Shown one piece after another: positions 7,510 through 62,602 of a stretch of DNA of 64,000 nt. Source of the stretch: Cephalotus follicularis (taxonomy: Eukaryota > Streptophyta > Magnoliopsida > Oxalidales > Cephalotaceae); NCBI GenBank assembly GCA_001972305.1, contig BDDD01002878.1, positions 63,468 through 127,467 of the forward strand, read 5' to 3'. The notes beneath the pieces are model-generated. The model did no database searches. It was not told where the DNA came from and saw only the letters and a program-made list of their open reading frames with translations. The translations under genes were made by a program, and so were the position numbers. Numbering within the stretch: the first letter of the stretch is position 1; every line of letters starts with the position of its first letter.

Positions 7510-8213
7510 TGTAACGCCCAGGATTTTTCTTTAAAGTGTATTATCGTATTTCCAATGTAATTTATGCTTTGAATTAATGAGAGTTATGGCTTTTCCTATT
7601 TTGAAATGCTAAGTCTTGAGCAAAAGTTAAAGTGTTGGTGTGTTGAAAACAGGCGGGTAGCCGACTGCAATAGGGGGGCAGTCGACTGGACCCTAAGCAA
7701 AGGAACCAGTCAGCTGCTGTGAGGAACAGCCGGCTGAAAACTGTCGGCAGAGACAGCCGACTGCCGAGACAAGGCAGTCGACTGCCATGAGATGTGTCAG
7801 TTAAAAACGTGTTGGCAGTCTCATTTGGCAGAGAGAAAGGGAGAGGAGACAAAAATTGATGGGTTTGTTGGCTTGAGAAGAAAGAGGCACGAAAATGCCC
7901 ATAAATACACACATCTCTCCCTTCGTTCCTCCAACATTGCATTAAGAAAGAGAAATGGAGAGTTTGTGAGAGATAGGAAGTTATCCTAATGCTCCATACT
8001 TGATGATGGATTAATGATGTTAAATGTTGGAATCATGTGGTATGGGACGCATGATTCGGTTTGTTTATTCAGCTTGTTATTAAGTGCTTCCGCAAAATGT
8101 TAATGGAATCGAAGATTTAATTTTATGGTATTTTGTATAAGTTGGATAATGTTATGCTGATTGCCTTTAGCGCTTTAATGTTGTCTTAATGGGAAACGGG
8201 GTGTGACAAAATC
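7505..8213 (+). mobile_element. Solo gypsy LTR (7510-8208) with TSD AAATC
   Basis: The LTR starts TGTAACGCCC and ends GGGGTGTGACA, with AAATC on both sides (7505-7509, 8209-8213). It interrupts the copia-1 RT frame, which rejoins precisely when the LTR and one AAATC are disregarded. The last 200 bp match 39990-40178, so the two LTRs are one family. It contains the CAGTCGACTG cluster at 7657-7790. A single LTR without internal sequence implies LTR-LTR recombination after insertion. Confidence 0.92.
7657..7790. repeat. GTCGAC-core palindrome cluster, CAGTCGACTG type (solo LTR 7510)
   Basis: Contains two perfect CAGTCGACTG decamers plus variants (CAGCCGACTG, TAGCCGACTG, CAGCCGGCTG, CAGTCAGCTG), separated by about 12-30 bp of unrelated sequence. 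It lies about 150-280 bp from the LTR start. Confidence 0.85.
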
Positions 8214-10304
8214 AAACTCTTTGATTGTCTCATCCAATCAGATGTTCTAACTTCTAAAAGTTTGCTTTAGTCCATAAATGGACTTCTGAAGCTTGCACAG
8301 TTTCTGGTCCTTACCAATGGGTATGAAACCCTCAGGTTGAGTCATATATATGCCTTCATCAATGTTTCCATGGAGAAAAGTAGTCTTCACATCCATTTGT
8401 CATATCTCATAATCAAAATGTGCAGCTATAGCAAGTAAAATCCGAATGGATTTAGGCATGGCAACAGGAGAGAAAGTTTCCTCATAATCAATCCCTTCCC
8501 GTTTGTTGTAAACTTTTGCTATGAGCCTAGCTTTGAAGGTCTTCACCTTTCCATCATCCCCAAGTTTCCTTTTGAAAATCGATTTGCAACCTAAGGGTTT
8601 AACCCCTTTGGGTGCATCCACTAGATCCCAAACTTTATTGGAGTACATGGATTCCATTTCAGAATTCATGGCTTTGAGCCATTTATCCGAGTTCATATCA
8701 CGGATGGCTTCTTTGTTGCTTACCGGATCATAATTCATGAAATTTACCTCCAGGGTACCTTCAATGAGAAAACGTCCATAGTATCTCTCAGCTTCCCTGG
8801 GTATTCGGGCAGTTCTGCGCAGAGGTTGTGTATCTATGGTAGATGGCATTTCAGGAACATCAATTTGAACAGGATTGGATAGGTCCTCAACTTGTGGTTT
8901 TATAGATCGTTCATCTAGCTCTATCATACTACCACTACTGTCTTCCAACAGGAAGTCCTTCTCAAGAAAAGTAGCATGCCTGGCTACAAACCCTTTGTTG
9001 TCAGGTGGGTAATAGAAATAATATCCTCTTCTTTCTTTAGGATATCTCACAAGTTTACATTTTATGGACATAGATTCCAATTTATCTGCTGATGCCTGCT
9101 TAACATATGCAGGACAGCCCCATATCCTTAGATAACTAAGATTGGGTTTCTTCCCGTTCCATAGCTCATATGGGGTTTTGGGAGCAGATTTTGTTGGAGT
9201 CCTGTTTAATAAGAGAACAACAGTCTCCAAAGCTGAACCCCAGAAAGACAGTGGAAATCCAACATCACTCATCATGCTACGTACCATGTCAAGCAATGTA
9301 CGATTTCTCCTTTCAGACGCACCATTATGCTATGGTGTTCCAGGAGGGGTTCACTGAGAAATAACTCCATTATATCTGAGATAAGTTAAAAACTCGATGG
9401 AGAGATACTCCCCACCTCGATTTCATCAAAGAGTCTTCACACTTTTACCAGTCTGTTTCTCTACCTCTTGTCTGAATTCTTTGAACTTTTCAAAGGATTC
9501 ATATTTGTGTCGCATAAGGTACAAATAACCGCAACAAGAATGATCATCCGTAAAGGTTATGAAGTAGGAATATCTACCTCTGACATCAACTGTCATCGGT
9601 CCACATACATCAGTATGCACTAGACCCAGTAGTTCTTTGGTCCTTTCCCCTTTCCCTGTGAAGGGATATTTTGCCATTTTACCTTTAAGACAGGGTTCAC
9701 AAGTTGGAAGTGGTTGATATGTTGAAAAATCAAAGTATCCATCTGAGATCAACCTGCGGATTCTTTTCTCACTTATATGACCAAGTCTGTAGTGCCATAC
9801 ATAGGGTTGATTAACTTGATCTCTCTTTCTTTTATTGTCTTTTTGCATATTGAAAACAGTCTCATGTTTACTCAATATATATAATCCATCATCAAGGAAA
9901 CATTTTGCATAAATCATATTATTAAATAAAATATAACAACACTTGTCTTTAAAAATTATATGAAAATCTTCAGCATCTAATGCTGGAATAGAAATAATAT
10001 TACGCAAAATGTGAGGCGAATAAACACAATATTTGAGTTCTAAACTCTGGCCCAAAGGCAACAAAATATAAACTCATATTATAGCTATGGCTTCAATAAC
10101 AGAACCATCCGCAAGCCGTAGATCTCCCTCACCCTTCTCAAGGTTTCTTCTATCCATGAGGGCCTATAAATTAGAACATATATTAGTACCACATCCACTG
10201 TCTAAAATCCAAGAAGATGAATCAAAAATATACATACTCACCTCTATATAAGACAAATAGGGTATACCTTTGCCAATTGATGTAAGGAATGTCACACAGT
10301 TCCT
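8214..10304 (-). pseudogene. Copia-1 pol, 5' part: protease, integrase, RT N-terminal half
   Basis: In minus-strand order: a protease remnant with WILDSGCGTN (about 10185-10220); a GAG-pre-integrase zinc site (HYRLGH, then CEPC); an integrase core with HTDVCGP and FTDDHS; a damaged DRGGEY region (9300-9425); and the integrase-RT linker with LRIWGCPAYVKQ. The RT start follows (WLKAMNSEMESMYSNKVWDLV near 8640, then FDYEI). A stop sits between FDYEI and QMDVKT near 8400, where functional relatives have tryptophan. Other stops fall near 10160 and 9425. Gag lies upstream in the same orientation. Confidence 0.9.
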
Positions 10305-11216
10305 TTTTTAATGTCCTGACTTTCCACAGTGGAAGCACGGTCCCTTAGCATGAGCTTCTGAGATAGACTCATCAGCAGGTGCAACTCTTGCGATAGTGTC
10401 CGGCGCAGCAACAGCTTGCTGGTTTGTCTGGTTATGTGGTCTGGCTTTCCCTTGTTTGAATGATGCCAGCCATGGTGGTATCATCCCATTTTTAGTCTTC
10501 CCCTTCTCAAGGTTGGACTTTCCCTTCCTCTTTGGCCTAAGGGACTGCCCAACCATCATAACTGGGGCCTTGCCCTTATTCATGTTCACTTCGGCTTCCC
10601 TCAGCATGTTTAGAAGGTCAGGCAGAGTAGCTAATATCATATTCATGTTAAAATTGGTGATGAAACCAGAGAAGGAAGGTGGAAGTGAATAAAGGATCCA
10701 ATCTATGCTTAATTCAGCATCCTGAATGATGCCAATAGCAGCAAGACGTTCAATCGTATTGATCATCTTAAGCACTTGATCATTAACAGAAGATCCTTCA
10801 ACCATTTTAGTGCCATACAGCTCAGCAGTGAGCTGAAACTGAGCATTCCTACTATTTTCTCAATATAACTCGCAGAGATGTAGCAGGACTTCTCTAGAGT
10901 CTCGCATCGATTCATGCTGGCCTTGTAGGGCATTGATCATCGATGCCATGAGGTAGCTTCTGACTTGCTTTTCATCGGCCGTCCATTTCCTATAAATGGC
11001 ATGATCTTCGGTTAAGGCATCTTCAGGAGGCAGTGTTGGCATAGGGGCCTCTAGGACATAATCTATGTCCTCAAAATTCAAAACTATTTTGAAATTCAGT
11101 AGCCAGTCCACATAATTTGGACATGTCAGCTGATTCTTCTCAAGAATTACAGCGAGTGGGTTTGTCATTGCGATGTCTGTACATATAAAATAAAGACAAT
11201 AATCAGATAAATTCAA
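10305..11216 (-). pseudogene. Copia-1 gag, two internal stops
   Basis: Starts near 11216 (the more family-like start is the internal MTNPLAVILEKN, about 48 bases downstream). It encodes a copia gag of the UBN2-like class: an N-terminal NYVDWLLNFKIVL segment, a central helical region with SLPPSF, a basic linker and the zinc knuckle CFHCGKSGH. A TGA near 10860 splits the protein after LHLCELY. A TAA replaces the residue after the knuckle histidine, although K-R-N-C continues the CCHC pattern. Gag would form the particle and bind RNA; this copy cannot make the full protein. Confidence 0.88.
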
Positions 11217-11399
11217 TTTAAATGTTTACAAACATAAAGCGTTGGTCTTTAATCTTTTAGGTGTTTTCCTCTCAGGCTCCCACTGTTTTACGCGAATCCC
11301 ATAACCCTCAAATATTATGGGAGACGAGAAATAACAATCCAAGTCTCGTGGATATTATTTTAGAGTGGGGATCGGTGTCCTACTACATATTTAGTATAA

Positions 11400-11700
11400 C
11401 CTTGACGGGGGCCAAAACACTATATTGAATCTTGCAGTTAGGCAAACTCTTGCCAACCATACAATAACATGATTCCTGATCATCGCTTTTGCCCCTAGTG
11501 CACATATGACCTTGACGGGGGCCAAAACGCCATATGTATTCTAGTCAAGTTTAACCTACCATTAAACACATGATGAATCAATGAATGTAAATCTTGACGG
11601 GGGCTAAAATATTCACATTCACAATTCATATGCATGTACATCTCATGCTCAACTTATATAGATGTTCCCAGAAAAGGTAAGCGTTGACGGGGGTGAAAAC
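11400..11700 (-). repeat. Four dispersed copies of TTTTGGCCCCCGTCAAG in the copia-1 leader
   Basis: Copies lie at about 11400-11418, 11510-11528, 11592-11609 and 11682-11700 (plus-strand form CTTGACGGGGGCCAAAA). Each is flanked by short AT-rich arms that are partly inverted, for example GAATGTAAAT and ATTCACATTC around the third. The GC-rich motif is more conserved than the arms and spacers, which looks like a set of hairpins with a conserved loop. Confidence 0.8.
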
Positions 11701-12444
11701 ACTCACAATTTCCAAGAGCATCTATATTAGTTGCAATGGCAGAGGCAACGACTGATCACTCTCTTGTGCCCATTTCGCTTTAACTTGATATCATGGTATA
11801 ATTGAGGAATGATAATATAACTCTTATTATTATTATTAGACGTCCCGTTATTAATCAAATTTTTGGTAGATGGCATATTATGGAGAGGGCGTTGGAACGT
11901 CTAGAGCATAATTTAGACATGCATCACATATATACTACAAACTAATGGCAAGTTATGGACTTTTCTACTGTAACTTGTTTGACTCTCAAACAAGCTATTG
12001 GTCTCATTCCTAGGTATGTTATTACAATCATACATTCGCTCCCATACATGCATGGGTCTTGTAATATCTTTGTTCTTCTCAATCTTGCTTCCGCTACGAC
12101 TCTCGCTCTTCAATTACATATATCAACTATAAACTACAGAGACCTTGAAATGAATCAAGGGGAGTTACAAGGAGGTGAGAAAGAATTCTAGATACAAATT
12201 AAGAGAGAGAAGAGAGACATGCAAGTCTAAAAAAATTATTACAACCCAAAAATTATGAAAAATAAAAATATACATTAAACATTTGAATAAAATAAGACAA
12301 AACTAGGTCAAGTCCATAGCCATGCCATCATGCATATTCAATCTCATTGAATTAACTAATAATCTTGATAAATATGCTTCTATACACATAGACACTTAAT
12401 TTGGTTATTTAGAAAAACTCTTTTATCATACTTTCTCGCCAAAC

Positions 12445-12608
12445 CATCGACTCTTTAAGACCAAGCGTCAACGTTCATGCGTTAAGCATCGACGCTTAGC
12501 ATAGTTTATCCACGCTTAACTACGTAAGCGTCGACGCTTTTCTCAAAAGCGTCGGTGCTGAACGACGTAGGCGTCGACACTTTTCTCAAAAGCTTCAACG
12601 CTTATGCG
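12445..12608. repeat. GTCGAC-core palindrome cluster, AAGCGTCGACGCTT type (copia-1 leader)
   Basis: At least seven units, including aagcgtcgacgctttt, gcatcgacgctta, gcgtcggtgct, gcgtcgacactttt and gcttcaacgctta. Spacers such as ttctcaaa recur. It lies about 150-310 nt downstream of the primer site on the copia-1 sense strand. Confidence 0.85.
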
Positions 12609-12751
12609 TATTCTTGCATTTGTTCAACAGTGGTATCGCGTAACTGTCAAAAATTCTGCAATGCATCACATGCTTTGTCTCATGAATTTAACCCAAACAA
12701 TTCAAACATATCATTAACAACATGTTTATAACTATACATATGCATCAAATC

Positions 12752-12766
12752 TGCTATGATACCAAT
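12752..12766 (-). other. Copia-1 primer binding site
   Basis: The minus strand reads ATTGGTATCATAGC, one mismatch from the TGGTATCAGAGC sequence complementary to initiator-Met tRNA that primes most plant copia elements. It lies directly inside the 5' LTR. Confidence 0.8.
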
Positions 12767-14295
12767 TGGTTGGAACCTTATGGCGATTTAAATAATAATA
12801 TATATATTGTGTTATCATCTCATTAATATCTAGCCATATGATTCATACGCAGGATCTTTTGAGCATACATACACAGTTAGATATATATATATATATTATA
12901 TATATATATAGTATATATATATATATATATATATATAAGGAGGAGCAGGCNNNNNNNNNNNNNNNNNNNNNNNNNTATAGTTACTGCTAGACAATCATAT
13001 TAGAACACAAACTTTTTTTCTTCTAAAAGAAGTCTCCTATTCCTTCTAGGAGAAATCTTCTTTTCCTTATAGAATTCTAATTTACCTTAATCTCATTAAG
13101 GATAATTAATCTCATTAATTATAATTAAAAAATTATTATCCTAAATTTTCTCTCATAACCGTGTTGGAAATATCAGCCCGTATTATGTGTGACCCTATGG
13201 GTTAACTATTATGCTGGCCGTAGGATTAAATCATGACACTCGCGATTATCCAATTACATATTTATTATCACATAAAAAATATTCTCTTCGACATATCGAA
13301 TTAAAACTCTTTTAATTCTTTTCTTCCAAGATTAATTTATCAATTTAATCTTGGGTATCCACTGGTCGACATCAACATATAGCAATGCATAACGACCCCA
13401 AGGTAATATGAATAATTTGTGAACCACTATTTACAGGTACATGCACGTATAGTCCCTCCATTGACAATGCTCTTCTTAAATATAGGGTACGGATTATGTC
13501 GGACCCCAATAATTTAATCTTCAGCCCTGACTATCTTTCATTAGCCTAAATAGTATTAGAGGTGCCCCTCTAATATTCAACCAATGATATCACACTCTTA
13601 ACATCGTGGCTAGCCTGGCCAGGCACTTAATCACTAACGAAAATCATCCTGAGCATAATCTTCTTTTACTAGAAGCAATGGATTCATTGTAGCCAATTCA
13701 CATGCCTCCATACATAAGCGTACCATGTCCAACTAATGCCTGTATACACTTCATAGAATATGTATTTAAGCATCATCAAAACACAGCACCTTATGCACAA
13801 GACATCCACTGACGGCTCATGCCCAAGGACCACATGCACTGCTGTAAAACTAGAATTCTATCAGACATGTAAGTAAAACTTCATACAGATATTCTATCAA
13901 CAGTCATCTTTAGTGAACTCGGGAAACGAGCACCCACGTAGTTGTCATAGCATCATCCATGCGAGTGAGTGTGAGATCAGTCACCCTCTGCTTACCGATC
14001 TGACAGTACGTGCTGGTCTATCCAGATGATCATGCCCTGAGTGTCTATCTTATGACTAGGAAGATTCGAAATAAAGTATACTGAGATTCCAATTCTCACA
14101 TCATGATCTCATCATGAACTTGATTCTCTAACTTTATTCCAGGACACTCATTTACAATTTAATTAAGCATGTATTAATGAAAAGAACTCTTAGCCATTGA
14201 TAAAACATAAACATCATTATTGAATTTATAAATCGTTTATACAATATATAGTAAATACAAACTCAACACTGGCTCACAGCAATTTATCTCTAACA
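12767..14295 (-). mobile_element. Copia-1 5' LTR, with assembly gap
   Basis: Matches the 3' LTR at 5079-6432. The minus-strand start is TGTTAGAG at 14295 and the end is near TTCCAACCA at 12767. A (TA)n tract (about 12878-12938) is followed by 25 unresolved bases (12951-12975). Length and content across the gap are therefore uncertain. Confidence 0.8.
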
Positions 14296-16032
14296 ATAAG
14301 TGCTAGTCACTAAACGAGTTCATGAAACTTGTATGATCCTTAGACCTGAGCGGCTGCTCTATATTGTATGAAGACGGTTATGCTTTGATCTCCACGTTGC
14401 CCAGTTCTTATGCGGGGATGGCAATCGAGTGGTCTTTGGGTATGATCAAATCAATACGAATATAAGTGAGTGCGCAATATGGGATTGTCACACATGAAAA
14501 AAGGTGATCGGCACTGTTATGGTTTGATTGTACTTCGGACTTATGAAATCCTTGGCCAAGGTTGAGGTGGACTGGAAATTGGATTTTCGGAGAGCCTACC
14601 AAAGGTCATAGTAATGATCAGATATTTTAGCCATTGAGGTATCATCTAGGGTTGATAAGTATGCTTACCTTATACCTCAGTCGAGCCAAGTATGACGAGG
14701 GATTATAGTACACGTGAACCGACGACTCAAAAAGTCTCGCGTTATGGCCGTGTGTAATAAATTATGAGAAAATTAATTGGATTAATTTTTCATCTGGATA
14801 ATATTGGATATTAGTACGAAAACATTTTAAATAGGTCTGGGACTATTTAGAATGCCTTAACCGAACCCTAGGGGTATTTTGGTAATTTATGAACACCACC
14901 GATTTTAACCAAGATTTTAAAGGGTCCATATCCGATAATGATATCTTCATAAATATTTTGGACATATTTAATCTTTGTGACAATAATAAAATCAAATATT
15001 TGTTAGATGGATTTTACGAACTCTGTTATCATTAAATGGTGACACATAGCACTGGTTCGCTTAATCTTATCTAATTAATCTTCCAACGGATATGTGGCAT
15101 CACTAAAATGAGTAGGACTCATTTAAGTGGTTGGTGGATGTTTTCTTGGACCAGTGAACATGTGACATGCAAAGAATGAGTTGGACTCATTCTTTATCAC
15201 ATGTAAGGCCAGCCCACTAAAAGAGAAAGTGGAACACGTTTTATGTGACAATTTCTTACTAGTTGAAAATGTAAGAAGCAGCCACAATGTCACAAAACGT
15301 GGGCACATTCTTGCTCCAACTACCAGCTATTTTTCTATAAAGAGAAAAATAAGATCAGTAAAAAGAGGAAGCACGTTGGATGATGCCAATAGTTTTCTTA
15401 GAGAAAACGACATAAAAGAAAAGTTGAGAGAGATAGTGAAAAATGCAATGATTGCATCTCACAGAGAACAAAAAGGCTTAGAGCTCATTTTCTCTTTTGA
15501 ATCCCTTCATTGATTTTTCTCACCAAGTTTGGAGCTAACCTAGGATGGATTGTAATTGACAGCCTTAGTCAATTTCATTGCTCCCTTTCTGAGCATAGTT
15601 AGATTACTTGACAGAGGGACTGTTTTCTTAAAGAATAAACTGCAACAATGGGATGTTTTGTTGGAGAGAAGGCCACTGATTTTCTTGGTGCTTTGAGCAG
15701 CAGTATTTAGCAACTTGGAAGAGATACAAGCTTAGAGAAAACAAAGGGAGACTTCCCAAGCGTGTAGTGGCAAAGAAGAAGGAGTCATCGATTTCAGTAT
15801 GTTCTCATCTGCTTCTCTGTGTTGTTGTTTCATCACATAAGCTTGTATATGTGATGACTATTTAATTATGATGTGATGCGGGTGTTCCTTAGACATGGAA
15901 TTGATAGAATTGGACCTGTGTTGTATATGGTGTTGAGAGGTTTTAATTTCGCTGCTAAAACAAAAAAAAATTAATTGCACCTCTAAACACCCTTGGTCTG
16001 ATTCCTACACCGGGGATGAATTTACATTCACA
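14296..16032 (+). mobile_element. Copia-2 5' LTR, right piece
   Basis: Continues the LTR that starts at 4903; ATAAG at 14296-14300 is the duplicated target of copia-1. The stretch 14324-14650 aligns with the copia LTR at 22350-22640, and in inverted form 14400-14960 matches 24560-24060. The LTR ends near CATTCACA at 16032, just before a primer site. Open frames here (for example 15181-15513) have no recognisable homology and look like chance. Confidence 0.7.
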
Positions 16033-18247
16033 ATAGCGGTATCAGAGATTACCACATCAGTCATAATAGAATTAAGATACCTAGGATGATGACTAATTAT
16101 GAATTTAATGTAGAGGCAGTGTTTTTGTCATTAAACTCAATCCTATAGTGCCATAATGTAATTTTGTTATTTTGAATGGTTTTGAGTGAAATTGGATGGA
16201 ATTCAAAACTATTTGTACTGTTGTCCTGTTTGAATTAACATTGGATGTTAATTTGAACATGTAGAGGATTGCTTTTACAATTAGTTCCCAAAAGATAAAA
16301 TGCAATATGGTGTTCATTTGACTAGTTTCGTGGACACCTGAAATTGAGTGTGCATAACTTGGATTGTGCTGATTTTTCTGTACTTTATATGTGCAGGGCA
16401 GTGTCTATTAGTTTGAGACAGTGGAAGCATTAGTGCAATCATTGTCTTGCTTCATGATACTCTTGCATATAATTCTTGGAAAATGCCTTTGGTTTCTATT
16501 TGATGGATAATGGTTGAAGAATGAGAGAATTGCATAGGCCATTTTTTTTGGGCATGTGTTTAGAACTTGCATAGTGCAGTTTGAGATTGCCAAATGTTTG
16601 CAAAGTGCAGATATGTGGAATACCTTAAGTCCTACAATTGGGAAAACTACATATTTTGGCATGGCGCCAATCTGCAGCAGTCTAACCGTCGACAATCTTA
16701 TTGAAAGCGTCGACGGTTGGACTAAGCACTGAGCTTAAGCGCTGACAAGACCGTTGAGCACCAACGGTTTTATATAAACTGTTGACGCTTAAAGCTCTAA
16801 AGCATCAATGGATAGCCAAAAGGGCGAACGGTTGTACAAAGCGTTGACGGTTTGAAATAAACTGTCGAGGCTTAGTGTGTCACCAGCAACGCTTTAGACA
16901 AACTGTCGACGCTTAGACGAGAAATTACGTTGTTGCTAAAAGTTTGGAATTTTTGGGCAAAGGCACTTGGTGGATAATTGATCATTGCTTGATTTAATGG
17001 AAGTTAAACCCATAAACAACCTCTGATATTAAATTTTGTAATTGGTTATTATGAGAGGCATTTGTGTATTGTTTTGAAGTTATATTAGATATACTTTAAT
17101 ACTCTTATGCACAATAGATGGCCAATAAGGACAACAACTAGTTTTTGGTTTTCTTTTGTGGATGATTTTGTTTGTTATTTATTAATGGTCTGTAATAAGG
17201 TGCTTGCATGCACCATTTAAATTCTCTCTTCTATCCTATTTATAATAGGATCTCTTCTCATCTTTTATATGCATTCTCTCCTTTAATGATTTGTTTGTAA
17301 TTTTCATTCGGAATGTAATTTACATTTGTAAAAGAGGACCTTACGAGGATAGATGGAGTAGAGGAGAAGAGAAATACAAGTCCATTAAAGGCCATGGATG
17401 CATGGTGCTATACATAATAGATAGATTTAATCGTTGCACCTAGGATGACCGAGTAATGACTTTGGTCTCAAGTCATTACTTATAGTGAGGTCCTTAGCAA
17501 TTCCATTTATTTATTTTAGAAATAAATCAAATGTGCATAAGATGGATAGTCCAAATACACGTCATGCATGCATAGCCGTAATTAATTGGAATTGGGTAAT
17601 GAAAACAATGAATTAATTAAGGGCTTTGTAATTAAAAAGTGAGACCTCAAAATCCCCATAACTCAATAATAAGTCGAAACGTAGGAACCCATGAAATGGT
17701 TCCTCGTGACCTTCCACAATCTTCGTTGAGTAGTGTACCTGGGTTATTAGTTTGTCATGCCTTAGCTGAGGCTGGTAACTATGGGATGCTATGTCAACGT
17801 CGATGTAGGACATCACAAAGGGTGGCTATGTTTTAGCACTTGGACACGCCTACGTATGGGTGTTAAAACTAGTGCATTCAAATGAAGTTTGTGGGTTTCT
17901 TGACTTATCTTGATTCTAATGGTTTGTTATGCCCTAGATAAGGCCATATTGAATCGAGATGATGAATTTTATGGTTGGATCTTCCATTAGATGCAAATTG
18001 GCAAGATAGCCTACCCATTGGCCATATTATGGTTGGACACGCCTACGTGTGGCCATAATATGATTGCGATGGATTCTAATCCCCATTAGGAAGTTGGACT
18101 TCTTGAGTTCCATATGGGGGTAAAGAATACGATTAGAATAGTAGGAGGAACCATAAGCACTAAAGACCAAGTGTTATGGTTGTCATATATTAAAATTGGA
18201 ATAGATGCTGACTCAACTTTACATTTCCTTATCTAGACTGCTATAAA
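16033..18247 (+). other. Copia-2 primer site and non-coding leader
   Basis: GCGGTATCAGAGATT (core 16038-16047) fits an initiator-Met primer site. The following 2.2 kb has no coding homology. A GTCGAC-core cluster lies at 16684-16920. The repeated phrase ggacacgcctacgt(g/a)tgg occurs at about 17842 and 18034. Nothing else is identifiable. Confidence 0.65.
16684..16920. repeat. GTCGAC-core palindrome cluster (copia-2 leader)
   Basis: About ten units, including accgtcgac, aagcgtcgacggttgg, actgttgacgctta, aagcgttgacggttt, aactgtcgaggctta and aactgtcgacgctta. Several units pair GTCGAC with ACGGTT instead of ACGCTT, a subfamily variant. Confidence 0.85.
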
Positions 18248-21817: not shown

Positions 21818-22988
21818 TGTTAGGTTATGGGTGTCCCTGTATGCCACAATATGGCTCGTTTGTATATAAACACTATTAATTAATACAATTCTGAATTCCT
21901 TTATATTTTATGTGCATATTTGTTTAATGGCAAGGCTATGTGGATCATCCCAACTAACCAAAATGAACAGACTAATTATACGTAATTAACTGTATGCCAA
22001 AATAGCATCCTTTCACGTTCAAAGGGTTAGATCTCTTGCCGAGAGAGCTATGAGAATGAGATCCTTATTCCCTGTGACAAATGTTCCAAGTCATAGGTTC
22101 AATTTCTTAGGGGCCATTGATGAACCGTGAAGACTTATCACGTTATGCTTGCTCCTGGGTTAGCAGTGGAGGTTGGTTATCTTGTAGCCAATTGGGTTTA
22201 TCCCTAAAGCTAAATGTGAGGTGTATGCTAGAGAGCAGGACACTGAACAGACCCACCAATAGGAAACCTATTTGGATAGTCAATACCCAATGTCAATAAG
22301 ATTCCTATGGTCTCGGTAGTGTATAGTCTATGGTGACTAGTAGTCCTATAGCCTGCATTGTCTCATTTGACCTGAGCAGCTGGCATGCATTGTGTGGTAA
22401 CTACTTGACTTTGATTTCCTCCTTCCCCAGCACTAGCCAGGTGCTGGCAAAAGGGTTGTCTTTGGGTCTTGTGGGAGCTGCATTGAGATGTATGGGCGAG
22501 TGCGCAATAGGGGATCGTCACACATGGGCTGAGGGTGAACGACTCTATTTGTCTATGTACGTTGCAGACTTAAAAGTCCTGATCAGGCATAGGTGGACTG
22601 GGAACAAGAGGTTCCTATGGGAAGTCTATCGATAGTCTCAGTGCGATCATAGATTCATAGCTATCACAACAATACTAGGGGTCTTATTTAGTGAAAGGAC
22701 AACATCAGGGAAGATGTTGCTTTGCTAGTGAGTATTTCATTTAATGGATTTAGGTCCATTCAATGCCACAATGAAATATTCCATGCAAAGGCTTATTTGG
22801 AAATATAAGAGATTGTAGTATTCTTTGTCTTAGGCATTGATACCTTGGTTGTGCATCGACGCCAATGTCTAGTTGGGCTGCTAAGCATTGACGTGAAGGG
22901 ATTGCATTGACACTGGAAAAACTAGTAGCTTTACACGTCAACGCCAAGAGGGAATCATGTCGACGTCTAAACTAGAATGCGATGGAAT
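21818..22988 (+). mobile_element. Copia LTR, start intact (copia-2 3' LTR or a separate insertion)
   Basis: Starts TGTTAGGTTATGGGTGTCCC, like the LTR at 26464 (TGTTAGATTGGGGTGTCCC), and follows it for about 1 kb, including the stretch matching 27620-27730. It joins the broken RNase H directly with no polypurine tract. The right end is unclear; homology fades after the GTCGAC cluster near 22985, where an inverted LTR fragment begins. Confidence 0.65.
22850..22972. repeat. GTCGAC-core palindrome cluster (copia LTR 21818)
   Basis: Five or six units: gcatcgacgcc, gcattgacgtg, gcattgacac, acgtcaacgcc, tgtcgacgtct. Most carry TG or CA in place of the central CG. Confidence 0.7.
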
Positions 22989-24561
22989 CGGCTTACCAAA
23001 ATCCTATGCCATAAATGGACTAAGGTATGTAGGGTGTAGAAGAAAAACTTAAACATACAAACATGGCAGCGGAAGAACACCAGACAAAAGAAAAATAGTC
23101 CATTATGGCATGACCACAAGCCACATGGATCACCACATCAACACTTTAATTGAAAAGATGTCACCATTGCATTCAATGGTGACATGCCAGCAAAGCAATA
23201 AGAGAGGGAGGCAAAGGGATGTACCAAAAGGGTGTTGGCTCCTCCTTTCATTGCCGGTTCAAGCTTGAGAAGACTCCCTCAAATGCTTCCAAAGTCCCTG
23301 GTCCAACAACTACTCCCAACCAGCAAGAACACAATAAAATCAGGCTGTGTTTTTCACTCTCTCTTCTTCACAATGCTCACAAAGGGTGCATTGGTGTTGA
23401 CACGGATTGTCAATGTCAATCCACCCTAGATAAGCTAAAATGCTTGATGTATAATCACAAAAGTAATGCCAAGAGAACCAGAAAATGCACTCCCATTTTG
23501 CCCAGCAAAAAGCCCTTGACCAAAAAAATGCTCTCCTAGAATGCCTTATGCTAGCCCCATTTCTCTCTCTCTCTTGCTCAACCTCACCTCCACTACTTGA
23601 TCATGTTCCTCCCTCTAAGGGATCATGGAACCATGATCTGATAACATGATTCCCATCATGCTAAGTGGGGAGAAAACTATTGGTAGTGGGAGTTAGTGGG
23701 AGAGAGAAAACATGTGCACGATATTGTCCACCCAGGGTACCCATGTCGCGCACAAAGCGTCGACGCCTTCCAATAAGCGTCGGCGCCTACCAATAAGCGT
23801 CGACGCTTATATGTAATAACACTATATGTTTCAAGTGTTAAGCGTCGACGCTTTCCCAGAAGGCATCAACGCTTTGTCTAATGATACGCGTTGATGCTTT
23901 CCAAAAGGTGTCGACGCTTAGACAAGCTGGTTAGGCAAAAAGAGTCTAACTCATATAATCCCTTTGAATATTGATTAAGTAAGATCAAACAAATATGTTA
24001 CCATAAAATGTAGGATCCTCTTAACAGATATTTGACACCAAGACTTAATATGACCAACATATTAAAGAACTAATCATTATTGGGCAGGGACCCTTCAAAA
24101 TCTTGGTTAAAATCGGAGGTGTTCATAAACTACCGAAATACCCCTAGGGTTCGATTTAGCCACTCTAAATGGTCCCAGACCAATTTATATGCTCTCGGAA
24201 TAATATCTAATATTATCCATATGGAAAATTAATCTAATTGATTTTTCCATAATCTATTACATACCTCTTTAACCCTAGATTTTCTAAGTCGTCGGTACAC
24301 GTGTACTATAATCCTTTGTCATGCTTGGCCCCGATTGAGGTCTAGGGTAAGGATATGTGTCAACCCTAGATAATACCTCAATGGATAAAATATCTGATCA
24401 TTACTAGGACCTTTGGTAAACTCTCCAAAAATCTAATTTCTTGTCTACCTCAACCTTGGCCTAGGATTTCATAAGTCCAAAGTATAATCATATAATAATA
24501 GAGCCGATCACCTTCGCTCAGGTGTAACAATCCCATATTCCATACTCACTTATATTCGTAC
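22989..24561 (-). mobile_element. Inverted copia LTR fragment
   Basis: Reverse-complement homology to the copia-2 5' LTR: 24060-24560 matches 14960-14400, and 23400-23450 resembles 15535-15565. It contains a GTCGAC-core cluster at 23754-23922. Neither LTR end is identifiable. Open frames in 23219-23539 are shadows without homology. Confidence 0.6.
23754..23922. repeat. GTCGAC-core palindrome cluster with near-tandem 20-bp period
   Basis: The first units are almost tandem: aagcgtcgacgccttccaat, aagcgtcggcgcctaccaat, aagcgtcgacgcttat. Four more diverged units follow (aagcgtcgacgctttccc, ggcatcaacgcttt, cgcgttgatgctttcc, ggtgtcgacgctta). This is the clearest view of a repeat unit with decamer plus spacer. 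Confidence 0.88.
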
Positions 24562-25831
24562 CGACTGGGGAAGCTTGGCAGTCGACTAATCACAAAGGCC
24601 AGCTGACTACACAAAACAGACTGCAGGCAGTCGACTGGTTCATAGATTCAGTCGACTACACAACCCAAGACAGTCGACTGTGTTCATATGGCAGTCGACT
24701 GTTCATCCAATCCAGCCGACTGTCCACAAGAACAACCGACTGTTCTGGACGACAGAACAGTAGGAAACTAGACAATTTCATGCAGAAAATGGTTCCAATA
24801 AGTACAACACTAAACCAGAGACACATGGACATAATTATACGACCATATATGACATTTAGATGTCATAGAAACACAGAATTGACATAGGAATATCTGGACA
24901 GTGGCTTAACTTTCAAGAGGAAGCAAGAAGACATGCATACATATATGTCCAGATTACTGTCTATTATAATATGCAGACTTTACAACTAAATTATGACATG
25001 TCTAAGGTGTATAAAATGTGTTGACAGTCTTACCAATACCATGACAGAACATATTAACATAGGAATTAAAACCAATGGACAATAAGCACATAAAACTGAA
25101 ATTATGACATTGAAGCAAATCCATCAGTAGGGAACGAATTTAACTAACCTGTAAGGTATTAAGAACACAGAAACAACAAGAATACACAATTTCACTGGTC
25201 AAACAACTGTACAGAAGAAGGACAAGAAAACAAAACAAGGAGTACATACATGCTTAACAAACTAGAAGAATTCAACCCAAAAGAACAACCAAAGGATTGA
25301 GATTACCTCTTCAGACTTAAGGAAACGATTACACAGCAGATTACACAGACTCCTCAAAGCAGAATAGGAAGTGGCAGGCAGTGGAACATGGATGACATAC
25401 ACACAAGAATAAAGCTCTTTTAAACATGATAGAAAGAGAAATTTGAGGGATGAATAAGGAAGAAAGGAGACAAGAATCGGTTGAATATGGAAGAGAGAGC
25501 TTCGGGAGAGGAGGGAAAGAAAAGGAAAGAAGAGAAGAAAGAAGAAAGAAAAGGAAAAAACAAGAAAAGAAAGAAATAATTTAAAATAAATAAATTAAAA
25601 TGGATTAAAAGTATTTTAAAATAAAAAGGAATAAAGTTTGATTAATGAATTAAAAACCCAAACCCAACATAGCATAACATATCCAAATATTTAGGCTGGT
25701 ATTAAACATACCAAATCACATAGGCCCAAAACATAGGGCAACTGGACATTTAAAATCAACAAAATTAAAAGTCCAAAAACAAATACGTAAAAAGTCCGTA
25801 AAACACATTTACGAACGAGCAGGGTATTACA
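24562..25831 (-). mobile_element. Truncated gypsy LTR, minus orientation
   Basis: The minus strand starts TGTAATACCCTGCTCGTTCG at 25831, matching the starts at 34888 and 55760. The expected LTR end (GGGGTGTTACA) is missing on the left, so it is truncated near 24562. It includes a purine-only-like tract (25499-25577), matching the pyrimidine tract of the related plus-strand LTRs, and a CAGTCGACTG cluster at its inner end. Confidence 0.75.
24579..24742. repeat. GTCGAC-core palindrome cluster, CAGTCGACTG type
   Basis: Five GTCGAC cores in cagtcgact(g/a) context plus cagccgactg, caaccgactg and ccagctgact variants, spaced 17-30 bp. Spacers are unrelated to those at 7657-7790 although the decamer is the same. 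Confidence 0.88.
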
Positions 25832-36242: not shown

Positions 36243-36380
36243 CGTTAAGCGTCGACGCCTTTGTCCTAATCGTTGACACTTTAGTGTTATGGTTTTGACG
36301 TCAATGCCTTGCGTTCACATCGACGCCTTTTGCATGAACAGGCTTAAGCGCTGACGCTTTTGTATAACCATCGACGCTTT
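36243..36380. repeat. GTCGAC-core palindrome cluster (LTR 36132, first)
   Basis: Six or seven units: aagcgtcgacgcctttg, atcgttgacacttt, ttgacgtcaatgcc, acatcgacgcctttt, aagcgctgacgctttt, accatcgacgcttt. It starts about 110 bp into the LTR. Confidence 0.85.
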
Positions 36381-36957: not shown

Positions 36958-37185
36958 AAGCATCGACGCCTATGTGTATAAAACTTGTTTTTAACGCCAT
37001 GCATGTGTTTAAGCATCGACTGTTTCGTTTTTACCGTCGACGCTTATGTCGTGAATGGTTATATGTTTTGTCAACGCTTTGTACAGCGCTTTGGTCCATG
37101 ACGTGTCGAAATCGTCAAAGCCTTCCGTTAAGCGTCGACTCTTATGTCATGCACGTTAACGCTTTTGTCCAAAACGTATACGCTT
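36958..37185. repeat. GTCGAC-core palindrome cluster (LTR 36132, second)
   Basis: Ten or so units such as gcatcgacgcctat, accgtcgacgcttatg, tgtcaacgcttt, aagcgtcgactctta and acgttaacgctttt. It lies downstream of the putative splice donor at 36648, unlike the first cluster. Confidence 0.82.
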
Positions 37186-38699: not shown

Positions 38700-40178
38700 C
38701 TTTATCCTTAGTAAACCGTCCCATGAACAAGAGACAAACTCCATTAATGGTCGTTTGAAGCTACTAGGCCCAAAATTTTCGAGAGCGCCAGCCGACTGTT
38801 CAGTAGGAACATCTGACTGCTCAATGGAACCAGCCGACTGTGCTTGGGAGCCAGTCGACTGTCCATGTTTTCTTCTAGAAAATGCCTATAGAGGCTTGAG
38901 TAGCCGACTGCTGGAAGGCAGCAGCCGACTGTAGAGTGAAAACAGCTGACTGCCAACAAGGGGCAGCCGACTGGCGACTGTAAGTAGAAAACAGCCGATT
39001 GTCAAGGACTGTTTTGCATTGTGAGGATATGTGTGCATCGTGAAATGTTATGAACTGAAATGTGAATTGTGATTACTGATTGTAAAACTGTTTTATCATT
39101 TTTGGAAGTGCATACATGATTATTATAAATCATTATTTTGTATGAAAATGTATGTTGTAAGCAAAATATATATTTTCGGAAGATTGTGAAAATGGATTCC
39201 AAAACATTGTGAACTGAGATTTGTAACATCGTGAACTAAGAACTGCGACATCGTGAAAATGGGTTTTTTTTCAAGTATTTTTATTTTATAAATTACTAGG
39301 AAAACTGATTTGAGTACCGAGATGATTGTGATTGTGATTTTGACTCTGACTTTGAGATGATTGTGATTTTGACTATGATAATGATTGTGATTGTGGCCGT
39401 ACTAGTTTCGTGGTGGAGATGCCAACGATGACTAGTGGTCGGGTTGACTCAGGGGCCAGGAGATGGCTGGGTAACTCACTGTACCGTGACCTGCTTCATG
39501 CCATCCAGAGTCGGGGCCGATGACAGGAGTACGATGTTGGGGCCAGGAGTTGGCGACGCTCTTCGTACCCATCGTGAACTGTTTGGATCCTTTGGACATC
39601 ATTGTGAACCGTGAAAATGTGGCTTTTTAACATCATGAACTATGATATTGTGGCTTTTGGCATATGTATATATATATATATGCATCGAGATATAGTATAT
39701 ACTGCATCATGGTGCATTCATTTCATGGCTTTGTTTATCTTTGACCGTAACTTACACTTATGACTTAGCCGAGTGAGGACAAAGGCTAACCCCCTACTGT
39801 TGCAGATTGATGCAGCATTCTGGATATCGCTGGCATGGTCGTATCGAAAGAAAGAGGGAGTTTTATTTATTTGAATAAATGTCAAACAATGTATTGAGAC
39901 ATGTTTTACTTTGGATTACTGTATTGATATTTTTATTGGTGTTGACCGACTTTTGATCACGCTCCGTTTTTGGGATTTTTAACAATGACTTATTGATGCT
40001 AATTGTAGGAATCATGTGGTATGGGACGCATGGTTCTGTTTACTTCCAGCTTCTTGTTAAAGGCTTCTGTAAGATATTCTTGGTATTTAAAGTTTTAAAT
40101 TTTACCATATTTGCATAAGCTGAATATTTATGTTGAATTGCCATGACTTTTAAGTTGTCAATGAAACGGGGTATGACA
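38700..40178 (+). mobile_element. Gypsy LTR fragment, 5' end missing
   Basis: Ends GAAACGGGGTATGACA at 40178. The last 190 bp align with solo LTR 8010-8208. No TGTAACGCC start is present, so the left limit is approximate. It contains a CAGCCGACTG cluster, a (tgattgtgattt)n-like simple repeat near 39325-39395, and ctaaccccctactgttgcag (near 39787-39805), which matches 63761-63781. Confidence 0.7.
38789..39001. repeat. GTCGAC-core palindrome cluster, CAGCCGACTG type
   Basis: Five GCCGACTG units, one CAGTCGACTG, and variants catctgactg, cagctgactg and cagccgattg. The dominant core here is GCCGAC, one step from GTCGAC. Confidence 0.82.
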
Positions 40179-42188: not shown

Positions 42189-43961
42189 AAATGTGTAACG
42201 CCCCCGATCCGAGTTCACTTTATGCTCAAAGTGAACTACAAGGATTCGGTGCGTTACGTGGGGCTGAAGCCTTTGATCCTTTAACAATCTTACTAATTAC
42301 TAATATTTTCCCAATTTCTCATAATCTCAAATATAATTTGCAACATTTAATGCTAAACTTTAAAATGTCATACTCTCTTAGAAACATCGTAAACCATAAC
42401 GATCATAGTCAATGTATTTATAAAATATCATCATGATACATTAAACAGTAGAAAACATTAACTTATTACATCAAAAGCAGTTTATGCAAAACATTAATGT
42501 ATAACATAATTTCCTTTCCAAAACTTCTTTTACAAACTTCCTTTGAAGCTCGAAATCTCTTCGTTCATCCATTCCCTGGAAAATTTTATTTAAAACAAAA
42601 CATTGAAAGGAATGAGCTTAAATAGCCCAGTAAGGGTTTCAAAATAAACATTTCATAACAATCACTCTTTTATGTTCATATCTCATGAAACAGAACATTT
42701 CATTTCTTTTTCTGATCATATCTCATGAATCAAAACATTTCATAAATAACTGAGGGGTAGTATAAACTTAAATAACCCAATTGAAACCTTTTACTTCACT
42801 GGGGCATTATGCACTCCCCGATTACTATCCTTACATCACATGCATGTCTGTGAACACTCTCATTTAATCCTTCTCGGATTAATCCCCATTGGATCGCAAT
42901 CCAAGAGTTGTTCATCTCAGTTTATTATCTTTTCATAAAATCATTTCTTAATACTTTGAGTGATTAGCTCAAGATATTCATAAAAATAGATTCATACAAC
43001 ATTTATAAAACTGAATTTACATAGAGCAATATAAAAAACAATAAAACTATAGTAGACATTTCAATACTTTCATAATGATAAAATCATAATTTTCACTAAG
43101 AAATAACAACAGAATATGAGCAGTAATTTTAAACATATAATTTCATTGGTAGAAATTCGAAATACATAAAACATAACAATCTGTTGCATAATTTTCCATA
43201 AATAACAGAGAATACTTTAAAAAATGAGTAAGCATAAAATACTTTGGCAAAAATGGTAGAATAAAATGCTTTAGAAAAATAAGTAAGAATCATTACTTTG
43301 CTTTAATCTCCTTCTCTCCTTTTCTACACCGAAGTAATTTCAATAGAATTCTCCTTCTCTTCTCTCATCTACTTTCTTCTCTTTTCTCTCTTCACTCTTT
43401 TCTCTTCACTCCTCTCTTCAGCTCAGTAATTTTTTTTAGCAGAAGTTACCTCCGTATTTATAGGAGAGTAACTTAGTCTGTAAGTTTTACGCCACCGACG
43501 TTCTGCCGCCGCCCATGTGCTTCTCTTTCTCCATATTAACGACACTTGTCATTTTTTTATCTTAAAATAATAACAATCAGTTAAAATATCTCAATTCTTT
43601 CATCCGATTGATGACATCTATCCATTATTATTATCATTAACTCACAAAACGACAAAAAAAGATAAGTGTCGGCGCTTTAACCTCAAGGCGCTGCTGCTTT
43701 CCCACTAAGCGTCACCGGTTGAACACATAAGCGTCGCCGCTTTCCCACTACACTATAAAAAACCATCAACGCTTAAGCTAATAAGTTTGGTGTGTTTTGG
43801 GGTACGAAATCAGACGACGCTTTGTGTACACTGAAGACTAACCGTCGACGCTTTAAATGCTATAAAAGGCAAAACATACACACAACACACCATACGACAC
43901 TTAGAACAACCATATTTCCATAAACAATAACTTCAACAAAATTTTAGGTCATTACAAAATG
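42189..43961 (-). mobile_element. Solo gypsy LTR (42194-43956) with TSD AAATG
   Basis: AAATG at 42189-42193 and 43957-43961. The minus strand starts TGTAATGACCTAAAATT and ends CGGGGGCGTTACA. It is the same family as the plus-strand LTR starting at 59278 (TGTAATGACCCGAATTT): 42830-42910 matches the inverse of 60810-60945. It has a GTCGAC-core cluster about 100-290 bp from its start and a pyrimidine-rich stretch (43310-43430). Confidence 0.92.
43665..43855. repeat. GTCGAC-core palindrome cluster (LTR 42194)
   Basis: Units include aagtgtcggcgcttt, aaggcgctgctgctttccc, aagcgtcaccggtt, aagcgtcgccgctttccc, accatcaacgctta, gacgacgctttg and accgtcgacgcttt. The ctttccc spacer recurs here and at 23841-23900, in a different family. 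Confidence 0.8.
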
Positions 43962-45029: not shown

Positions 45030-45061
<32 letters not shown>

Positions 45062-46192: not shown

Positions 46193-46402
46193 ACCGTCGA
46201 TGCTTTATGCTTTCAAAACTAAACCTATCGACACTTTTATGTGTTAAACTTATAGTCGACGCTTTTATGTGTTAAACTTACAGTCGACGCCTTTATGAGT
46301 TAAACCAAACAGTCAACGCCTTATGCTTTAAAACAAACCGTTGACGTTTTATACTTGTGCTTTTTAAAACTGTTAACGCCCGGGGCTAAGCATCGACGCT
46401 CA
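46193..46402. repeat. GTCGAC-core palindrome cluster, present only in the G4 5' LTR
   Basis: Eight units with a ~30-bp period and recurring spacers (ttttatgtgttaaactta): accgtcgatgc, ctatcgacac, tagtcgacgc, cagtcgacgc, cagtcaacgc, ccgttgacgt, ctgttaacgc, gcatcgacgc. The equivalent place in the 3' LTR (52677 onward) carries unrelated sequence. Confidence 0.88.
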
Positions 46403-59039: not shown

Positions 59040-59044
59040 ACCGG

Positions 59045-59516: not shown

Positions 59517-59740
59517 GCGACGACGGTTCTAGGTAAAGAGTCGACGCTTTGGAGGCGACCGACGACGCTCCAAATGTAAGCTTCGACGCTTTGAGATCAA
59601 GTATTGAGGTTGACTTGTAGGAGACTTAAAGCGGAGACGCTTTGTAGGAAAGCATCAGTGCTTTGGTAGGGATAGAATTTGGAGAACTCAGGATAAGCCC
59701 GTGACCGGCGATGCTTAGGGATAAAGAGTCGACGCTTTGC
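59517..59740. repeat. GTCGAC-core palindrome cluster (LTR 59278)
   Basis: Units: gcgacgacggtt, gagtcgacgctttgg, ccgacgacgctcc, gcttcgacgctttg, gcggagacgctttg, gcatcagtgctttgg, ccggcgatgctta, gagtcgacgctttg. It starts about 240 bp into the LTR, in the same place as in relative 42194-43956. Confidence 0.85.
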
Positions 59741-61158: not shown

Positions 61159-61312
61159 CGCATCGACGTATTTGTAAAGACGTCGACGCCTATGGGAACA
61201 TGGGGCACACATAAATGCATATGCATGCATGTCGATGCAGACGAAGGCATCGACTCCCTTGTACGAAAGAGGAAAAGACATCGACGTCTAAGGAAAGACG
61301 TCGACGCCTTTA
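61159..61312. repeat. GTCGAC-core palindrome cluster, GACGTCGACGTC type
   Basis: Units: gcatcgacgta, gacgtcgacgcctatgg, gtcgatgc, ggcatcgactccctt, gacatcgacgtctaagg, gacgtcgacgccttt. The flanks here favour GACGTC rather than AAGCG. Confidence 0.85.
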
Positions 61313-62066
61313 AAAAGAATTTCAGTCACGTTATGAACTGACAGAATAACGTACAAGGGAGGGGAAATCCAAGGCCTTTGCAGGCACCAGATGCAATGTG
61401 TTGTGCATGCTGGAATGTCACCAGGCATGCAACAGGACGTGTCCTCAACCTTGTGCATGCAAAAGGGGCACACATCTTCACCTGCAATTGCAGAAAACAG
61501 AGAGGAAAAGACCAAAAAGAAAGAAGAAAACGGGGAGAGAAGGAATGGGGAAATGGAACCTGCAAATGCATGCAACGGGAATGGTGATGAGGGGAGAGAG
61601 TTCACTAGCATAAATGCTCTCTCTTCCCTGCTTGTCTGGTTAAACACCTGAGTGTTAAGGAGAACAGTGAGGAGAGATAAACACTTCCTCCATTACTGGA
61701 CCAGTGGAGCTTTGGGAAACTTAGAGCTGGAGGCTGGCAGCAACGGGACAACCTTGGAGCTGCTGTGATCAACCCTTGGAACTAAAAGAGGTGGACTTAC
61801 AAGGTTTCTAACATGAAACCAGAGGTAGGGGAAGTATATGTGCACTTTTGAGTTCAAAGCTAATGCCCTGCCATGAATGAAATGCATGAATTGCATGCTT
61901 GTTTTGGAGTTGATTAGGATGTTGGTTTGATAAATGAACACCTGGTTGAGTAGACTATGCATGCATGTTGAATTCTGTATGAATCCCATGTTAGACTGCG
62001 TGTATAATTGGATTTTATGTTCCTGTTTTGGTGTTGTATGGAAGAGACAGTGTTCTGGGCTCTTAA

Positions 62067-62132
62067 AACATCGACTCTTTTGTAGTAAACATCGACGTCT
62101 TTATGTGATGAGGCAATAGACGTCGATGTCTA
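62067..62132. repeat. GTCGAC-core palindrome cluster, small
   Basis: Three units: acatcgactctttt, acatcgacgtcttt, gacgtcgatgtct. Confidence 0.75.
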
Positions 62133-62332
62133 TTTCAAACATTTGCAGAACGCAATGTTGCCTTATGGACTTTTTGGATTTCTTGTGGGTTGATGATCTG
62201 GTCATATACGTGGATAATCTATTGTGCATGTTACACTGTGAGCAATACATCTGGAAGTTTGCATGCATGGATGGAAGATGTTTCTTCCTTGGAAATGGAG
62301 ATTGGACGAATTGATGCCTGCTGGTATCACTT

Positions 62333-62602
62333 AAACATCGACGTCTATGGAAGGCATGGACGTCTTTTGTTGCTATGCATTGGGTTTTGCACATAACGCG
62401 AGGACGTGTTGAGGTTCCTACCTTAAAAGTCGATACGTTGTGATGAACATCGACGCTTAAGGAATTTGGCTTGAAGGCATCGATGTCTATGGGAAAACGT
62501 CGACGCAATTCGTACTGTTGTAAGCACTGACCTTGAAGGTAGACCTCGACGCTTTTGGGGCAATGGACATCGACGCGTTGGGGGAAAGACATCAACGTCT
62601 TT
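62333..62602. repeat. GTCGAC-core palindrome cluster, extended
   Basis: About nine units, such as acatcgacgtctatgg, gcatggacgtctttt, acatcgacgctta, gcatcgatgtctatgg, acgtcgacgc, acctcgacgctttt, acatcgacgcg and acatcaacgtcttt. The word atcgacgtctatgg recurs. Confidence 0.82.

Follow-up and report, generated by a model that had tools for sequence, protein, structure and literature searches.

Arrays of GTCGAC-core palindromes with a spacing of ~21 bp in copia and gypsy retrotransposons of Cephalotus follicularis

The long terminal repeat (LTR) retrotransposons of Cephalotus follicularis carry rows of short palindromes with a common GTCGAC core, which recur at a distance of about 21 bp and are found in the LTRs of both copia and gypsy elements as well as in copia leaders; the palindromes are alike within and between the rows, and the spacers differ. 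The stretch under study, hereafter the window, consists of 64,000 nt of contig BDDD01002878.1 (positions 63,468-127,467, forward strand; assembly GCA_001972305.1), and the word counts extend to the whole source assembly of 1,577,397,061 bp. Judging from the sequence, we consider it probable, rather than certain, that these rows serve as cis-regulatory arrays for protein binding and that unrelated lineages of LTR retrotransposons recruited them in parallel. The analysis covers one genome and, within it, a few classified elements.

Excess and spacing of the palindromes

The clusters are built of two palindromes, (AA)GCGTCGACGC(TT), here called the GCG type, and CAGTCGACTG, the CAG type. In the window, GTCGAC occurs 40 times, against a mean of 5.23 and a maximum of 12 in 100 dinucleotide shuffles, and has the top second-order Markov score among the hexamers that occur at least 8 times; among decamers of the same minimal frequency, GCGTCGACGC ranks first and CAGTCGACTG fourth by this score. 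Sites of the RYCGAC type number 124, with a mean of 42.1 and a maximum of 58 in 200 local shuffles, and make up 9 clusters, a cluster being 4 or more sites separated by no more than 120 bp, compared to a shuffle mean of 0.02 and a maximum of 1. With a tolerance of 2 mismatches to either decamer, GCGTCGACGC or CAGTCGACTG, the window has twelve clusters of at least 3 sites (matches less than 6-7 bp apart were merged); together with two looser groups (at ~16.69-16.91 and 22.85-22.97 kb) they form a hand-made list of 14, not far from the "about sixteen" clusters of the initial annotation. The clusters described there do exist, and the phenomenon is larger than was first noted.

The excess extends to the whole genome. 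With the reversed word as a control each time, AAGCGTCGACGCTT is found at 18,108 places against 15, and CAGTCGACTG at 197,377 places against 939, so that both words are hugely over-represented at the scale at which the initial annotation had proposed to look. A random sample, made up of the first 5 kb of 16 out of 100 randomly drawn 10-kb places (80 kb), contains 152 sites, whereas two pairs of control words have 37 and 38 there; it also holds 19 clusters, with one or more in 11 of the 16 pieces. The sample is rich in the CAG type (24 exact words against ~10 predicted from the genome count) and contains no AAGCGTCGACGCTT, of which ~1 was predicted. Scaling 19 clusters per 80 kb to the genome gives ~370,000 arrays; half of this number may be nearer, given the CAG excess in the pieces.

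The spacing is distinctly non-random. In the window clusters, 26 of 51 neighbouring sites lie 20-22 bp apart, whereas random placement within the same clusters (2000 trials) yields 3.1 on average and never more than 10. When all 1024 palindromic decamers are scanned in the window, GCGTCGACGC and CAGTCGACTG have the most neighbours at this distance, 13 each, followed by a near-match of one GTCGAC word (10) and by AT-rich words (no more than 6). Among neighbours within 130 bp, the same distance accounts for 65 of 106 in the random genome pieces and for 36 of 63 among exact CAGTCGACTG sites at the first 100 places listed. The loose spacing of 20-50 bp initially described gives way, accordingly, to a peak at 20-22 bp. 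Since 21 bp corresponds to two turns of B-DNA, neighbouring sites would be exposed on one face of the helix.

The 14 array windows used here and in the analysis of site changes, as well as in part of the column-identity analysis, were defined by hand from the site table. At up to 3 mismatches, 10.5 bp is the best period of the GCG type over all spacings in the window. Helical phasing beyond the 21-bp peak was considered and discarded as weak: upon removal of the peak, the power of the GCG type is 3.16 (n=33, up to 3 mismatches) or 0.00 (n=22, up to 2 mismatches), and in the genome loci the remaining GCG spacings give 2.68; the CAG spacings give 7.33, but their phase is offset and 11 bp fits them better. 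A 7-bp period in the CAG type follows from spacings of 21, 28 and 49 bp.

Conserved palindromes and divergent spacers

In the window, spacer identity is 0.37 within arrays (38 pairs) and 0.325 between arrays (287 pairs). Column identity is high over the palindrome letters, except for dips at some letters of the GCG type and, in the CAG type, at the T/C position, and drops towards background beyond ten letters (CAG) or about fourteen (GCG). Selecting units by their likeness to the words favours the palindrome in these identity figures; it does not favour the 21-bp register. In array-bearing loci elsewhere in the genome, the palindromes of CAG arrays are 0.86 identical within arrays and 0.84 between them, compared to 0.35 and 0.28 for the spacers (44 and 946 pairs, respectively); for the GCG type, whose spacer as counted here includes the AA and TT flanks, the palindrome values are 0.77 and 0.75, and the spacer values 0.59 (10 pairs only) and 0.43 (243 pairs). 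Between a solo LTR in the window (Table 1) and three genome copies, 33-36 of 40 letters agree in the palindromes but 31-37 of 75 in the spacers; for the upstream part of the LTR, the figure is 92-101 of 158-161 letters. Thus, the observation that the palindromes are kept while most spacers differ holds, with the exception of a group of 28-bp repeats at 46.2 kb; apart from these repeats, the spacers are less alike between units than the motif is.

Carriers of the arrays in copia and gypsy elements

The carriers examined comprise a copia element whose two LTRs and leader all bear arrays, the leader of a second copia element, and two gypsy 3' LTRs. The first (locus L162) is assigned to copia by the Pfam domains RVT_2, rve and Retrotran_gag_2; its LTR copies are 93.8% identical, and GCG arrays are present in both of them (with one site at the edge of the aligned copy) and in the leader. 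The homologues of its polyprotein are mostly plant copia polyproteins (120 listed of 3691). On the gypsy side, the domains RT_RNaseH and RT_RNaseH_2 in L179, and SH3_Tf2-1 together with a below-cut-off rve in L167, are followed by an LTR that starts with TGTAACGCCC and carries a CAG array beginning 151 or 175 bp into the LTR. The LTR of L165 aligns with these two gypsy-adjoining LTR starts, and so does the solo LTR of the window.

In the cases with protein evidence, then, copia elements carry the GCGTCGACGC (GCG) type and gypsy elements the CAGYCGACTG (CAG) type. Because the type tracks the superfamily in every such case, the two are confounded, and what copia and gypsy share is the core and the spacing, not a copied module. 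The initial claim of one module in both superfamilies therefore stands for the kind of array and falls for the literal sequence, the flanks and spacers being different. Lateral spread, which the annotation had offered as an explanation, finds no transferred sequence to support it: the spacers are nearly unrelated between arrays, and the transfer of a single module was dropped as the main idea on this ground and in view of the different flanks of the proven copia and gypsy arrays. Of the locations originally listed, gypsy LTRs, copia LTRs and copia leaders are borne out; the one "internal region" is not, since the array at 7.66-7.79 kb sits in the solo LTR nested in the copia coding sequence. 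GCG arrays in window stretches with gypsy-like ends (42194 and 44644) hint at a possible further mixing of type and superfamily.

Other sequences were found next to arrays. Frames matching PF20167 (putative plant transposon protein) adjoin or overlap arrays in L154 (199-1383, +) and L156 (319-1047 and 8815-9999, +), the L156 pieces scoring 45.5 and 79.8 bits (cut-off 45) and those of L154 falling below; elements of this kind are possibly a third type of carrier. In L160, the stretch 1945-4253 matches itself at multiples of ~185-190 bp with 76-79% identity, in the manner of a satellite, and lies near two array-bearing 980-bp repeats. Pattern scans of prokaryote and viral collections returned 60, 89 and 0 stretches; none of the 149 prokaryote and viral loci ranked by site density had a GC content below 0.45, and among five inspected, L048 and L141 are exact tandem repeats. 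In L048 (1101-1332, contig of a Prevotellaceae bin), a similar unit, GGCGTCGACG, recurs in tandem every 21 bp, and its spacers are conserved. A search for relatives by way of a spurious open reading frame over the 7.6-kb array gave 23 candidates, none of them at E <= 1.

Site variants, candidate factor and proposed role

The variants of the CAG type were counted in 242,731 bp, namely, the window together with loci L154-L179, of which L154-L163 are non-random, having been picked around AAGCGTCGACGCTT matches. In this set, CAGCCGACTG occurs 33 times against 40 for CAGTCGACTG, the next neighbour word 15 times, and the CpG-deaminated form 4 times; in the random pieces alone, the ratio is 21 to 24. 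CAGCCGACTG points one way in 8 of the 9 groups with at least 2 such sites, and the double variant CAGCCGGCTG is found once, compared to ~7 expected from independent halves. Hence, the site is palindromic yet read, or copied, with a direction.

Where sites of the CAG type are altered, the change is most often to GCCGAC. In parts of the literature on plant cis-elements that were available (PMC9138379, PMC4886440), GTCGAC is catalogued as CRTDREHVCBF2 and RYCGAC as CBFHV, the latter being assigned to AP2/ERF. Given these catalogued sites and the GCCGAC change, our best guess for the binding factor would be an AP2/ERF protein of the DREB/CBF class, a rather doubtful identification and a lead rather than a result. 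In the 73 GCG sites, deamination-type transitions make up 59 of 81 changes at CpG letters, and transitions elsewhere 72 of 143; as far as the letters tell, this excess is a mark of methylation.

The arrangement that we envisage consists of palindromic, putative protein-binding sites of 10-14 bp, set in rows at intervals of ~21 bp, either in the U3 part of the LTR or in the leader that is transcribed. The GTCGAC core would be read by a single DNA-binding factor of the host or by a few related ones, and it is because of this common factor that unrelated LTR lineages could have evolved arrays in parallel. Proteins bound on the same face of the helix would act together as an enhancer (or a boundary), which would either drive transcription of the element or hold off its silencing; after insertion, the sites would decay, partly by CpG deamination. 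Among the functions suggested in the initial annotation, a protein-binding array appears to fit best, in view of the spacing, the preservation of the palindromes and their placement. We also entertain, with more reserve and as something that we would not yet bet on, the stronger proposition that copia and gypsy have converged on a common grammar, with a GTCGAC-core palindrome every two helical turns and with GCG or CAG flanks separating the superfamilies, so that the arrays would be the main binding landscape for one family of trans-factors.

A number of observations weigh against protein-binding arrays of this kind, or narrow their scope. The GCG type, unlike the CAG type, does not tolerate both letters at Y (2 sites changed to GCCGAC against 42, compared to 33 against 40), and the AP2/ERF reading therefore suits the CAG type only; RYCGAC is kept on a strand in 58 of 99 sites (up to 3 mismatches, 14 array windows), a figure to be read with the selection of these sites for likeness to the GTCGAC words and with the possible origin of ATCGAC by CpG deamination. 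The common polarity of the CAG variant could stem from local duplication as well, and the likeness of GCG spacers within arrays as compared to between them, from few pairs as it is, together with the 28-bp tandem copies at 46.2 kb, indicates that local duplication contributes. In the close LTRs of L179, L167 and L165, palindrome identity (0.86-0.88) is not clearly above that of the spacers (0.74-0.89), the palindrome columns being those that match in at least 2 rows. Beyond the 20-22-bp peak there is no clear 10.5-bp phase, and distances of 28 and ~50 bp recur. Only 4 of the 14 arrays have a strict TATA pattern in the span that was searched. The 16 random pieces are a small sample. Finally, none of 20 copia reverse transcriptase (RT) loci, fetched out of 150 scored, has a cluster of at least 3 sites in its 1.5-kb flanks; as such flanks mostly fall short of the LTR, this result speaks against arrays near RT and is no test of the LTRs.

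If proteins do bind to the arrays, the same cis-code with the same geometry has evolved in unrelated retrotransposon families within one host, and the control of the retrotransposon load could be tested with one protein and one synthetic array. Under the stronger proposition of a common grammar, the arrays would tie the whole of this load to one factor, for which they might possibly serve as a sink. The very large number of sites provides, in addition, a natural experiment on the spacing and decay of putative binding sites in silenced DNA.

Alternative explanations

The arrays could be targets of anti-silencing, to which a VANC-like protein encoded by a transposon binds to remove methylation, other families having gained the motif and using the protein in trans. 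We regard this as unlikely, even though the known VANC targets, in the passages of the sources available (PMC5735166, PMC10398659), are clusters of short motifs of one orientation in non-coding regions of transposable elements, with high density being important, and the arrays here are likewise dense, mostly one-way and, where this is known, mostly non-coding. VANC motifs, however, are family-specific, whereas the core described here is common to copia and gypsy rather than confined to one family, and the spacers are hardly tandem copies. Another possibility is that the palindromes function in RNA or single strands, by forming hairpins between neighbours, by pairing between genomes for dimerisation or packaging, or by supplying double-stranded RNA for small interfering RNA (siRNA). 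Compared to shuffled sequences, seven of eight arrays have better folds (z between -2.35 and -7.67), and retroviral dimer signals lie where the leader arrays lie; yet such folding is expected of any repeated palindrome, and the array of L171 stays within what chance gives (z = -0.98). Compensation between neighbours was looked for and given up, none being clear: paired with each other, GCG neighbours have 4.84 mismatches compared to 5.05 for random pairs (standard deviation 0.16), and CAG neighbours 5.30 compared to 5.27 (standard deviation 0.23), so that neighbours are scarcely better complements than random pairs. Besides, in the sense RNA of four oriented CAG LTRs the common variant takes the form GCCGAC (at all such sites in three of them and at two of three in L165), so that C-A replaces U-A; a change after which G-U pairing would be retained is the rarer one there. 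This counts against a structural role in RNA, which seems quite unlikely to us.

A functionless minisatellite, generated by 21-bp tandem duplication of a palindromic seed and spread by the elements, would account for the regular period, the 28-bp tandem copies at 46.2 kb, the gain or loss of an array between paired LTR-like copies, the slightly higher likeness of spacers within arrays, and the lack of an excess of palindrome over spacer identity among the three close LTR copies; the 21-bp repeat of the bacterial locus L048, with its similar unit, points the same way. Neutral repeats should, however, decay evenly, with the CpG-rich palindromes going fastest, whereas here it is the palindromes that are alike and the spacers that are not, also in comparison with the distant LTR of the window, and independent lineages with unrelated spacers would all need the same core and the same period. 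We give this explanation as little credence as the one by RNA structure. It is very improbable, lastly, that the palindromes are targets of host methylation, nucleating silencing by RNA-directed DNA methylation (RdDM) or otherwise at their CpG and CHG positions: the GCG palindrome does contain three CpGs, the CAG type has CG and CHG, and the changes at CpG letters of the GCG type are skewed towards deamination as described above, but deamination marks methylation in general, not a role as a target, and such a role explains neither why the elements keep the sites nor why these are 21 bp apart.

Features of the window

Table 1. Palindrome arrays and their carriers in the window
Feature	Position	Strand	Remarks
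Copia A	5133..14297	-	gag, gag-pre-integrase, SH3 and RT pieces between aligned LTR parts
Solo LTR, gypsy-type ends (TGTAACGCCC...GGGGTGTGACA)	7510..8208	+	AAATC on both flanks; nested in copia A
CAG-type array, 6 sites	7658..7785	+	in solo LTR, 148 bp past its 5' end
GCG-type array, 6 sites	12465..12602	-	copia A leader, between a site like a primer-binding site (PBS; 12754, 1 mismatch) and gag
Loose GCG-type group	16686..16913	.	
Loose GCG-type group	22853..22967	.	
GCG-type array, 7 sites	23757..23918	.	
CAG-type array, 7 sites	24579..24743	.	spacings 49, 21, 22, 21, 21, 20
GCG-type array, 4 sites	36249..36378	.	
GCG-type array, 3 sites	36960..37142	.	
CAG-type array, 9 sites	38789..39002	+	upstream of an LTR-type 3' end at 40178
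GCG-type array, 3 sites	43666..43852	+	last site 8 bp upstream of TATA-like CTATAAAAG (43860)
GCG-type array, 4 sites, 28-bp repeats	46194..46400	+	in LTR-like copy 44643-47803
GCG-type array, 6 sites	59517..59736	.	
ACGTCGACGC / GCATCGACGT variant array, 4 sites	61160..61308	.	
ACGTCGACGC / ACATCGACGC variant array	62337..62577	.	4 sites at up to 2 mismatches in 62447-62577

The LTR parts of copia A, 5133-6434 and 12976-14297, are 89.7% identical, with an N gap at 12951-12975 cutting the second; the LTR-type 3' end at 40178 matches the end of the solo LTR (74% over 206 columns). The LTR-like copy that holds the 28-bp repeats has a second copy, 51103-54189, which is without the array, the two sequences parting directly after CCGTCGA; over their 3.1 kb the copies are 86% identical, with ~0.3-0.4 kb wholesale replaced and the break at the palindrome.

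Two further features of the window lie apart from the arrays. A fragment of a hemerythrin-like plant gene (33404-33994, -) is found between the stretches 32189-33463 and 34114-34230, which match one copia-type LTR at 40186-41498. It shows 41-55% identity to the longer plant matches and 72-76% over short stretches only (own entry excluded), and looks like an insertion or a captured piece. A 5S rRNA-like match (677-769, +) scores 43.2 bits, the gathering score being 38.

Relation to known systems

The view of the initial annotation that no named element or system has this form was too strong, given the catalogued GTCGAC and RYCGAC elements and, in particular, the RM boxes of Sireviruses, the nearest known kind. 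These palindromic repeated motifs in the LTRs of a copia group (Bousios et al. 2010, PMC2829016) are described, in the passages available, as confined to Sireviruses; apart from those of Tnd-1 they have a CGG-CCG signature, and extra copies lie before the envelope gene; many Sirevirus families have an RM word of their own, and that from Vitis, CGGTCGACCG, has a GTCGAC core. Like the RM boxes, the arrays here are short high-copy palindromes clustered in the LTR with diverging flanks, and for both, sites of stress-related factors have been suggested. The RM boxes lie in the upstream half of the LTR, and before the TATA box; a position before a TATA-like box is clear here at 43860, and the leader arrays are downstream of the PBS. 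The arrays differ from RM boxes in their words, GCGTCGACGC and CAGYCGACTG, which lack the CGG-CCG signature (CAGCCGGCTG appears once among the 87 rows of the window site table), in their presence in gypsy LTRs and copia leaders, and in the dominant 21-bp register, a spacing that the available passages on RM boxes do not give. Two array-bearing LTRs adjoin gypsy domains, and the copia elements of L162 and copia A may or may not be Sireviruses; as RM boxes are called Sirevirus-specific, the gypsy arrays fall outside that definition. If the palindromes are indeed binding sites, a feature so described would extend to gypsy elements.

The C-repeat/dehydration-responsive elements (CRT/DRE) CRTDREHVCBF2 and CBFHV have the identical core, and the alternation of the CAG type between GTCGAC and GCCGAC stays within RYCGAC; as far as the accessible descriptions go, however, those are 6-bp sites of gene promoters, in contrast to dense arrays of a 10-14 bp palindrome, the GCG type of which refuses GCCGAC. 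Two further systems may be regarded as functional parallels. The VANC targets of VANDAL elements resemble the arrays as dense, co-oriented short motifs in non-coding transposon sequence and differ, in what we could consult, by their motif (YAGTATTAY for VANC21), tandem-repeat context, family specificity and known element-encoded binder. The Su(Hw) array of the Drosophila gypsy element is similarly made up of short protein sites, the spacers of which vary, and lies in the leader of an LTR element; in the descriptions at hand, it is built of a 12-bp zinc-finger site with AT-rich spacers and belongs to one element family of an animal.

Enhancer repeats in U3 that use host stress factors are represented by the Tnt1 boxes and the heat elements of ONSEN, which have few copies in one family each; we know of no genome-wide shared word among such stress repeats. 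The literature searched, with most subscription journals outside its coverage, contained, among the matches listed and judging by their titles, no published retrotransposon arrays of GTCGAC or of CAGTCGACTG. Thus, palindrome arrays have been known from one group of retrotransposons, and the form shared by copia and gypsy elements appears to be new.

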